Of a stretch of DNA of 64,000 nucleotides, positions 258 to 46,575 are shown in pieces. Origin of the DNA: a virus. The position numbers were made by a program, and so were the translations under genes. Where the stretch lies: positions 62,001 to 126,000 of IMG/VR virus record IMGVR_UViG_3300044691_000566, one strand, 5' to 3'. A model generated the notes under the pieces. It was not told the DNA's origin. It saw only the letters and a list, made by a program, of their open reading frames with translations, and searched no databases. Each line of letters starts with the position of its first letter. Position 1 is the stretch's first letter.

Positions 258-300
258 TTGACACTCCAACAATCCTTGGGGTAGTCTTGACATTGTCAAG
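258..300 (+). promoter_or_regulatory. Early-type promoter with spacer inverted repeat and downstream palindrome
   Basis: TTGACA at 258-263 and TAGTCT at 282-287 are 18 bases apart. The spacer (264-281) carries CTCCAA-N6-TTGGGG, a near-perfect inverted repeat shared by four other promoters in the window. Directly over the expected transcription start lies CTTGACA-T-TGTCAAG (286-300), a perfect 7-bp inverted repeat around one base, the best operator candidate in the region. It drives the gene starting at 313. Confidence 0.75.
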
Positions 301-3535: not shown

Positions 3536-3588
3536 TTGACTCCCCAACAATCCTTGTAGTAGTCTCAGACCCATCAACCCGCCAGAGA
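3536..3588 (+). promoter_or_regulatory. Early-type promoter plus CCGCCAGAG leader
   Basis: TTGACT 3536-3541 and TAGTCT 3560-3565 with an 18-base spacer containing CCCCAACAATCCTTGTAG, a weaker copy of the shared spacer repeat. The leader CCGCCAGAGA at 3579-3588 recurs downstream of other early promoters and just before other small genes. Confidence 0.75.
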
Positions 3589-3604: not shown

Positions 3605-3832
3605 ATGACCAAGACCGTGCGCGCCCTCACCCTCACCGCCGCCACCGGCATGCTCGCCCTCACCGCCGCCTGCGGCTCGCACCACACCCACACCCACGGG
3701 GTCCCGGTGGTCGCGGTGCACCACTACTCCAGCCACCCGGCCCCCACCACCCACGTGATCGTGCACCACGTGCACCACGTCGTCGTGCACCCGGCGGCCC
3801 CCAAGACCTCCTCCAAGTTCCGCAAGCACTAG
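3605..3832 (+). CDS. His-rich putative lipoprotein
   Basis: Seventy-five residues. The N-terminus is a type II signal peptide: basic MTKTVR, hydrophobic stretch at residues 7-20, then a lipobox-like LTAAC with Cys23 as the predicted lipidated residue. The mature part has about a dozen His in HxH and HH patterns (residues 25-62) followed by a short basic tail, so it could bind transition metals at the outer face of the membrane. It has its own promoter and terminator, so it is a stand-alone unit. Phage lipoproteins elsewhere act in superinfection exclusion. That role, or metal capture, is inference. ATG start at 3605. Confidence 0.75.
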   Translation: MTKTVRALTLTAATGMLALTAACGSHHTHTHGVPVVAVHHYSSHPAPTTHVIVHHVHHVVVHPAAPKTSSKFRKH

Positions 3833-9470: not shown

Positions 9471-9500
9471 TTGTCCTACCAAGAATAGTTGGAGTAGGGT
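9471..9500 (+). promoter_or_regulatory. Early-type promoter with spacer inverted repeat
   Basis: TTGTCC 9471-9476 and TAGGGT 9495-9500, 18 bases apart. The spacer TACCAAGAATAGTTGGAG holds CCAA-N6-TTGG in the same place as in the promoters at 258, 28384 and 45929. Confidence 0.7.
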
Positions 9501-9529: not shown

Positions 9530-9712
9530 ATGGACACTGACGTCCCGCTGAGCGCCCTCCTCCAGAAGATCGATGCCGTTCTGCTCTCCCAGGGCACCGA
9601 CCCCGCGTCCATCTCCGACACCGACAAAATCATGCTCGCCGTGCAGTACGTGGAGATCGCCTTCTCCCGGGGACTCACCGTCGCGGCCCACCTGGAGATG
9701 TACCGCCTATGA
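9530..9712 (+). CDS. Small hypothetical protein
   Basis: Sixty residues from ATG 9530 with CCCGGAGGT at 9517-9525. Helical, acidic (MDTDVPLSALLQKIDAVLL), function unknown. First gene of a three-gene operon ending with dCTP deaminase. Overlaps the next gene by 4 bases (ATGA). Confidence 0.65.
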   Translation: MDTDVPLSALLQKIDAVLLSQGTDPASISDTDKIMLAVQYVEIAFSRGLTVAAHLEMYRL

Positions 9713-28383: not shown

Positions 28384-28412
28384 TTGCTCTCCAACAATCC
28401 TTGGAGTACTCT
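28384..28412 (+). promoter_or_regulatory. Early-type promoter with perfect spacer inverted repeat
   Basis: TTGCTC 28384-28389 and TACTCT 28407-28412. The segment CTCCAA-CAATCC-TTGGAG (28389-28406) is a perfect 6-bp inverted repeat with 6-base centre, the clearest copy of the shared operator candidate. Confidence 0.7.
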
Positions 28413-28444: not shown

Positions 28445-28654
28445 GTGGCATTCTTCCTCGACCCCGAACTGGCCCGTCTCGTCGAGGGCAGTTCCTCCGG
28501 CGCCCCCGCGAAGACCGCTCCGGCCAGCGGGACCCGTCGGCCCAACAAGTTCGGGAAGAAGTGCCACGGCTGCGGGACCTGGGTCAAGCCCCAGGAGGGC
28601 TATCTCGGCAAGGACGGGGGAGCCTGGGTCGTGTACTGCACCACGTGCCCCTAG
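28445..28654 (+). CDS. Small zinc-ribbon protein
   Basis: Sixty-nine residues from GTG 28445, with TCTGGAGG at 28432-28439. A basic linker (TRRPNKFGKK) precedes a four-Cys ribbon, CHGCGTWV ... YCTTC (about residues 40-68), as in small phage nucleic-acid or protein-binding factors. Function unknown. First gene after its own promoter. Confidence 0.7.
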   Translation: MAFFLDPELARLVEGSSSGAPAKTAPASGTRRPNKFGKKCHGCGTWVKPQEGYLGKDGGAWVVYCTTCP

Positions 28655-40179: not shown

Positions 40180-40494
40180 TCAGGACTTCTCCGGCGTCGG
40201 CTTGGGCGTGTGGATGCCGGTCTTCCGGACCCACCCGGCCTCGAAATCCTCCACCTGGTCCTTCGTCCACATGCGGCCCATGCGCAGCACCCGCCAGGGC
40301 TGGCCCAGGCGCCCGGTGGCCAGCTCGTCGGCCCGCTGCTTGGTCACGCCCCAGCGGTCGGCCAGCTCGGCGAGCCCGAAGACCTGCATGTCCTCCAGGA
40401 GTTCCGCCACCCGCTGGAGGACCACGTCCTCGGCCTGCTCGCTCAGGTGGTCGTCGAAGGTGGGGGTACCCGGGAGTTCACGCTGATCGTTCAT
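40180..40494 (-). CDS. Helix-turn-helix DNA-binding protein
   Basis: A minus-strand protein of 104 residues if it starts at ATG 40494 (MNDQRELPG), or 110 from ATG 40512. Neither has a strong ribosome site. Residues about 45-95 are a MerR/excisionase-like wing-helix: FGLAELADRWGVTKQRADEL followed by GRMWTKDQVEDF. These proteins bind operator DNA. It is the only clear stand-alone DNA-binding regulator in the window and lies directly upstream of the five RNA units. A GACGATGTCAAG sequence at about 40516-40527 (minus) may be its own operator. Confidence 0.75.
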   Translation of the reverse strand: MNDQRELPGTPTFDDHLSEQAEDVVLQRVAELLEDMQVFGLAELADRWGVTKQRADELATGRLGQPWRVLRMGRMWTKDQVEDFEAGWVRKTGIHTPKPTPEKS

Positions 40495-45928: not shown

Positions 45929-45974
45929 TTGACACTCCAGGAATCCTTGGAGTACAGTCACCTTCGCCAGAGAA
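45929..45974 (+). promoter_or_regulatory. Early-type promoter with spacer repeat and leader
   Basis: TTGACA 45929-45934, 18 bases, TACAGT 45953-45958. The spacer CTCCAGGAATCCTTGGAG carries the shared inverted repeat. The leader CGCCAGAGAA follows at 45965-45974. Confidence 0.8.
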
Positions 45975-45996: not shown

Positions 45997-46575
45997 ATGC
46001 AGGTCCGTTTGACTCTTACCGGAACCACATCGCTGCTCATGCACAACGCGCGGCTGTCCGACCCGTTGGACCCCTACACCAAGATGCTCAAGGCCATCTC
46101 CTCCAAGCGCACCAAGACGGAGGACGACCACGACGACATGGCGCGCGTCGAATTCCTCGGCGGCCTGTACTTCGACCCGGAGGCCGGGCCGTACGTTCCC
46201 GGCGTCAACGTCCACCGCTGCCTGGTGGAGGGCGCCAAGCTCAACAAGCTGGGCCGCCACGTGGAGCGCGGCATCATCGCCCTGGACGAGATCTGCCCGC
46301 TGGGCTACGCGGGGCCGCGCACGGAGGAGGCGCTGTGGAAGGACAAAAACTTCGTCTCCCGGCTGTCCGTCGGCGTCACCACCTCGCGCGTCATGCGCAC
46401 GCGCCCCGAATTCCCGGTGTGGGGCCTGGAGGCCGACATGCTGGTGGACACCGGCCAGCTCGACCTGGAGCAGGTCCGCACCATCGCCGAGAAGTCCGGA
46501 CAGATGATCGGTCTCGGCGACTACCGTCCCCGGTTCGGGCGATTCACCGTCGAGGTCGTCGAACTCCAGGGCTGA
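45997..46575 (+). CDS. Conserved phage/prophage protein of unknown function
   Basis: A 192-residue protein from ATG 45997 with CAGGGAGGG at 45985-45993. Its phrases GTTSLLMHNARL, DPYTKMLKAISSKRTKT, GPYVPGVNVHRCLVEGAKL, TSRVMRTRP and GLGDYRPRFGRF recur in a widespread phage family that I remember but whose function I do not know. The strand-helix order and a late Gly-rich loop recall RAMP/Cas7-like RNA-binding folds, but that is speculation. It is usually followed, as here, by a gene of the type at 46615. Confidence 0.7.
   Translation: MQVRLTLTGTTSLLMHNARLSDPLDPYTKMLKAISSKRTKTEDDHDDMARVEFLGGLYFDPEAGPYVPGVNVHRCLVEGAKLNKLGRHVERGIIALDEICPLGYAGPRTEEALWKDKNFVSRLSVGVTTSRVMRTRPEFPVWGLEADMLVDTGQLDLEQVRTIAEKSGQMIGLGDYRPRFGRFTVEVVELQG

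Follow-up and report, generated by a model that had tools for sequence, protein, structure and literature searches.

The window analysed here is a 64,000-nucleotide stretch (bases 62001–126000) of a 159,746-bp virus record, IMG/VR IMGVR_UViG_3300044691_000566. Gene calling over the whole record with a simple codon model gave 199 genes, whose starts are therefore approximate. The GC content is 67%. The virus is related to Bxz1-like mycobacteriophages (subfamily Ceeclamvirinae), for instance Tonenili and Sebata, with which it shares 41% portal-protein identity, and its relatives in IMG/VR range from 86% to 53% portal identity. The part of the record at 19–72 kb contains small, fast-evolving genes, including Thoeris anti-defence 2 (Tad2)-like, T7 gp5.9-like and RNA-repair genes, and is called early here because of this gene content. 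Positions below are those of the window unless the record is named.

Five promoters in the window

According to the original prediction, five promoters of the window carry an inverted repeat between their −35 and −10 boxes. All five repeats were confirmed, each on the plus strand as the spacer separating two boxes that resemble −35 and −10 elements (listed below). The E values given are those of a sequence-only model of the 34-bp promoter, built from 29 rows of which three came from relatives (L016, L025 and L026); on the record the model reached values down to 5e-10, and all of these values are purely descriptive because the model was built from these same sites.

258–263, plus strand: promoter 1, −35 box TTGACA
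264–281 (record 62264), plus strand: promoter 1, candidate operator dyad CTCCAACAATCCTTGGGG, filling the entire spacer; E = 9e-10
282–287, plus strand: promoter 1, −10 box TAGTCT
286–300, plus strand: second inverted repeat CTTGACA-T-TGTCAAG, over the expected start site; confined to one subclass of sites
3536–3541, plus strand: promoter 2, −35 box TTGACT
3542–3559 (record 65542), plus strand: promoter 2, candidate operator dyad CCCCAACAATCCTTGTAG, followed by gene 3605–3832; E = 1e-8
3560–3565, plus strand: promoter 2, −10 box TAGTCT
9471–9476, plus strand: promoter 3, −35 box TTGTCC
9477–9494 (record 71477), plus strand: promoter 3, candidate operator dyad TACCAAGAATAGTTGGAG, followed by gene 9530–9712; E = 5e-5
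9495–9500, plus strand: promoter 3, −10 box TAGGGT
28384–28389, plus strand: promoter 4, weak −35 box TTGCTC, 17-bp spacing
28389–28406 (record 90389), plus strand: promoter 4, candidate operator dyad CTCCAACAATCCTTGGAG, followed by gene 28445–28654; E = 7e-8
28407–28412, plus strand: promoter 4, −10 box TACTCT
45929–45934, plus strand: promoter 5, −35 box TTGACA
45935–45952 (record 107935), plus strand: promoter 5, candidate operator dyad CTCCAGGAATCCTTGGAG, followed by gene 45997–46575; E = 6e-8
45953–45958, plus strand: promoter 5, −10 box TACAGT

The second repeat that had been noted over the start site of promoter 1 is indeed present at 286–300, but it is not a general feature and belongs to one subclass of sites. 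The pattern TGAC-N2-4-GTCA lies downstream of 9 of the 24 well-scored sites in this record and of 12 of 23 in G009; after the dyad sites of G004 and G010 it was not found, with at most its right half seen. The repeat at 286–300 is similar to another element that recurs in this genome. With up to two mismatches, the repeat GACTTGACTCTATCAG occurs 12 times in the window, where 0.01 would be expected, and 25 times in the record as a whole, on both strands and never inside a called gene. Of these 25 copies, six form the downstream repeat of dyad promoters and the rest are intergenic beside GC-rich runs; the element is nearly absent from the relatives scanned.

9384, 10635, 28365, 40056, 40168, 44835, 44950, 45302, 45579, 45702, 45820, 49084: copies of GACTTGACTCTATCAG in the window

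A separate leader, GAAGRGGTGRAGR, occurs nine times in the window against 0.85 expected, often before structural genes, and may mark late genes.

10705, 22743, 29404, 32150, 36333, 43123, 49200, 53780, 56008: copies of GAAGRGGTGRAGR in the window

The dyad family in the record and its relatives

Across the record the dyad is found at about 31 promoters, most of them at 19–72 kb; every one is on the coding strand, and almost all immediately precede a gene. Their consensus is TTGAC-N-CTCCAASRATYCTTGGAG-TAGTCT, with the dyad of the form CTCCAA(C/G)(A/G)AT(C/T)CTTGGAG. Arms of 7–8 bp flank a centre of 2–4 bp, and the dyad makes up the complete 18-bp spacer, which is 17 bp where the −35 box reads TTGCNC.

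In the window, the bare 18-mer was found 20 times with up to three mismatches (17.9 expected), which is not above chance, and the window by itself therefore proves little. The whole record decides the matter: a motif scan of it, a check of the kind proposed with the original prediction, returned 30 matches to the 16-mer CTCCAACAATCCTTGG (up to three mismatches) and none to the reversed control pattern. On the plus strand, a degenerate 18-mer with the same tolerance had 28 intergenic matches versus one inside a gene, intergenic DNA amounting to 16 kb of the 160-kb record. A per-genome matrix passed 27 sites that lie 53–90 bp upstream of a called plus-strand gene (limit, 110 bp), 23 of them at 19–72 kb; four further sites located farther from a called gene (record 44764, 52223, 62264, which is window 264, and 143026) bring the total to 31. 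A dyad site was present in 25 of the 42 larger gaps before plus-strand genes at 19–72 kb, compared with 4 of 28 elsewhere. Two sites, record 59160 and 149300, combine an intact dyad with a poor or shifted −10 box. The dyad promoters recur as near-identical cassettes with the conserved leader GACTCC-n-GGAG, and they mostly head fast-evolving, putatively early genes. Across all of IMG/VR, the exact 16-mer was found in eight contigs, about the chance level, the sole true relative among them being L016.

Within the dyad-rich region, a Tad2-like anti-Thoeris protein is encoded at L019:15724–16008 (E = 4e-21), a gp5.9-like RecBCD inhibitor family match lies at 20–72 kb, and five tRNA genes (Gly, Asn, Phe, Leu and Met) are located at L019 11306–12954 and L020 1608–1682. 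Among the 61 proteins in alignment A3, one matches the rifampin ADP-ribosyltransferase family (Arr-ms, E = 6e-7). Outside 19–72 kb, 24 of the 28 larger pre-gene gaps are without a dyad, and several of those before structural genes carry GAAGRGGTGRAGR.

Among related phages, the promoter model detects the family in G001–G005, G009 and G010 and has no match in G006–G008, G011–G014, Tonenili or Sebata; matches in L016, L025 and L026 are partly built in, because these supplied rows of the model. By matrix scanning, G009 has up to 33 sites, G004 up to 31 and G010 up to 26, the weakest being doubtful; further dyad sites were located in G015 (portal identity 60%) and G016 (56%). The family reaches phages at 56–63% portal identity (G010, G015 and G016). 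At least two dyad-less relatives have other promoter families. In L041 (IMGVR_UViG_2818991472_000001), the family TAGTGAAC-N-TTGCG-CATACTC-N-GTGCACTAGATT occupies about ten intergenic places, with half-sites flanking the −35 box on both sides; in L031 (IMGVR_UViG_3300037882_001264), GCTCAGGTAC-TTGACA-N17-TATTGTTCTAC is common to four or five promoters and gives these phages a third promoter family.

Against the possibility, allowed for in the original prediction, that the repeat is absent from the promoters of relatives, most orthologous genes retain the site. In G009 it precedes 18 of the 20 orthologues of site genes compared with 2 of the 113 orthologues of site-less genes (Fisher p = 4e-18), and in G004 the corresponding numbers are 12 of 17 and 2 of 113 (p = 2e-11). 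Promoter 3 is an example, its dyad at 9477–9494 being retained upstream of the G009 and G004 orthologues of gene 9530–9712. In L016, L025 and L026, dyads of the same family stand before a gene resembling 28445–28654, and the −35 box is different there. At orthologous promoters, identity within the dyad is 82% to G009 and 71% to G004, in the −35 box 53% and 33%, in the −10 box 55% and 68%, and in the flanks 35–40% to G009 and 31–40% over both genomes. Identity thus peaks in the dyad and drops sharply on both sides, and the dyad is kept better than the polymerase boxes. The likeness of orthologous sites could partly reflect copies homogenised within each genome. In G010 and G016 the −35 box is poor, and the dyad and the −10 box persist. 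As in phage regulons with distributed promoter operators, the family has many copies, which are placed at promoters and between genes and are conserved at orthologous genes.

Candidate regulators and readings of the dyad

The minus-strand helix–turn–helix protein at 40180–40494, proposed earlier as the regulator, is an unlikely candidate, profile searches having found no homologue in G010 and G015, both of which bear the dyad. Its match to such a domain is weak (HTH_59, E = 0.0095, below the cut-off), and homologues were found in G009, G001 and, weakly, G004. Tblastn of the phage collection found no homologue of this protein or of the MerR-like protein described below, and no sigma factor was present among the families listed for the proteins scanned. 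Better candidates lie outside the window.

Record 145415–146500, minus strand: MarR-like gene, divergent from a helicase gene; the gap separating the two contains a near-perfect dyad
Record 150175–150633: MerR-like core protein gene (DUF7229), in an operon that begins with the dyad at record 149300

The arrangement of MarR-like gene, dyad and helicase gene recurs in L077, L078, L079 and L081. The MarR-like protein is fast-diverging, with 19–27% identity to its relatives where the neighbouring genes are 50–60% alike. In its structure model, residues 187–246 form a winged helix (pLDDT about 80); the rest is poor, and this otherwise poor model matches MarR-type chains at Z up to 7. Within the family, HTH_23 matches one member and phrog_2030 (transcriptional regulator) matches one member. 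As a universal partner of the dyad the MarR-like gene was rejected: no homologue was detected in the dyad-bearing G015, and one is present in G013, where no dyad was found. Adjoining it, at L022:1430–2311, is a Bro-N/KilAC antirepressor-like gene, part of the minus-strand group next to the helicase promoter; the cultured Bxz1-like relatives are considered lytic. A search for genes whose occurrence exactly follows that of the dyad left 2 of 199 genes, neither an evident regulator.

The dyad stands at about 30 promoters and is kept far better than the surrounding DNA, so that one master regulator very probably binds there. The shared candidate operator of the original prediction, set in early-promoter spacers and of a form fit for a dimer, is supported by the roughly 31 promoters and by their conservation at orthologues. 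With modest confidence, we read the dyad as the operator of one phage-encoded dimeric regulator of the early-gene regulon, most likely a repressor. Host RNA polymerase would recognise the −35 and −10 boxes that flank the dyad, and each subunit of a dimer would contact one half-site of the 18-bp spacer, as the symmetry and the half-site alphabet suggest. Placed between the two boxes, the dimer would exclude polymerase and so most likely shut the early promoters off, either once the regulator has accumulated or in a resident phage. Host polymerase should transcribe early genes of this kind immediately, which makes a later phage repressor the simplest reading; the takeover-type genes of the region (Tad2-like, T7 gp5.9-like and RNA repair) should be made first and can be silenced later. 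Protein binding, the dimeric state, the phage origin of the regulator and the early timing are presumed here, and repression over activation is a guess.

Several other readings were weighed. That the dyad is no protein site at all, and reflects a spacer suited to polymerase, a hairpin or a promoter cassette that recombination has homogenised and distributed over the early genes, appears very improbable. The recurrence of near-identical cassettes with their common leader speaks for it, but identity is maximal in the dyad, falls in the flanks and exceeds that of the polymerase boxes. Moreover, the arms within one site are no more complementary than shuffled arms or arms taken from other sites, and G004 freely mixes the half-sites CTCCTGC and CTACAAG. 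Arms that do not covary and half-sites that are mixed freely fit protein half-sites and do not fit a hairpin, which was rejected because the arms do not compensate each other. An operator of a host regulator exploited by the phage is very unlikely, even though the promoters look host-type and a host protein would be available at infection. Among GTDB representatives, the composite CTCCAASRATYCTTGGAGTA (operator plus TA) has two matches, which are at chance level and come from archaea; its absence from the bacterial genomes scanned makes a host protein or host regulon unlikely, and a host regulon or integrated prophage was rejected on this ground. The half-site alphabet also differs between related phages.

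Activation from the spacer dyad by a phage protein, for which the MerR-like core protein is the most plausible choice, is a possible but rather unlikely reading. MerR-family regulators have operators between −35 and −10, and we take the dyad core CAAG-N4-CTTG and the 18-bp length to resemble the SoxR box. The protein matches MerR_1 below the cut-off (E = 0.0027) as well as DUF7229, and its model, which like that of the MarR-like protein has low overall confidence, matches MerR-family chains at Z 3–4. A homologue is present in every dyad-bearing record that spans the replication region, and the operon of the gene itself starts with a dyad. A dyad kept beside a poor −35 box (G010 and G016) or a poor −10 box (record 59160 and 149300) would also suit an activator. 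Against this, MerR activation usually uses 19–20-bp spacing and the spacers here are of 17–18 bp; the model lacks a long dimerisation helix; and homologues also occur in dyad-less relatives. Genes read immediately after infection normally need no phage activator. Within each of four genomes the −35 match and the symmetry of the dyad are uncorrelated, which argues against an activator and led us to reject the idea that dyad symmetry substitutes for a poor −35 box; because the two are unrelated, the sequence does not discriminate repression from activation. The narrower proposal that the DUF7229 MerR-like protein is master regulator of the roughly 31 early promoters with 17–18-bp spacers, the dyad replacing the −35 box in some relatives, is more doubtful, and we know of no case, among phage early genes or MerR proteins, of a dyad standing in for a −35 box at such spacers.

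Comparison with known phage elements

The analysis defines a candidate genome-wide early regulon, from sequence alone, in uncharacterised large phages related to Bxz1, with its target promoters listed and specific candidate regulators named. Confirmation of this regulon would reveal how host takeover is timed in these phages and would provide a compact operator–promoter unit transferable to reporters. No report of this dyad family was found in the literature searched, most subscription journals lying outside its scope.

The closest parallels are repeated elements of other phages. In Cluster K, ESAS combines an intergenic imperfect inverted repeat with SigA-like −10 and −35 boxes 17–18 bp apart; it has arms of 15–17 bp separated by 12–14 bp and seven copies in Adephagia, and was proposed to be an operator or promoter whose binding protein is unknown (PMC3203893, PMC11373665). 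The two families are alike as conserved intergenic elements upstream of several genes in which an inverted repeat is joined to polymerase boxes. They differ in that the dyad here is compact, with arms shorter than those of ESAS, is the exact 18-bp spacer, has about 31 copies and is unrelated in sequence. ESAS is associated with SAS (GGGATAGGAGCCC); the leader of the dyad promoters is GACTCC-n-GGAG.

The Bacillus phage SPbeta carries SPBRE, a 15-bp motif with ten binding peaks of the master repressor MrpR (PMC10516654). There, too, an element is repeated in many promoters of a large phage, and in SPbeta it is bound by one master repressor; SPbeta, however, is temperate and MrpR has a tyrosine-recombinase fold, whereas no integrase was recognised among the proteins scanned here. 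Cluster A stoperators likewise place many regulator sites across an actinophage genome, but they are asymmetric sites for a monomer and halt elongation, whereas the sites here are symmetric and lie inside promoters (PMC9283540). Cluster O mycobacteriophages have more than 30 copies of 17-bp dyads whose binding protein is unknown, most of them away from promoters and eleven within genes (PMC4351075); the copy number is similar to that found here, where nearly all dyads are at promoters. The dyad family therefore differs from the systems compared in its sequence, its exact-spacer position and its copy number at promoters, and, if confirmed, it would add a case to the question of what the Cluster K and Cluster O dyads do.
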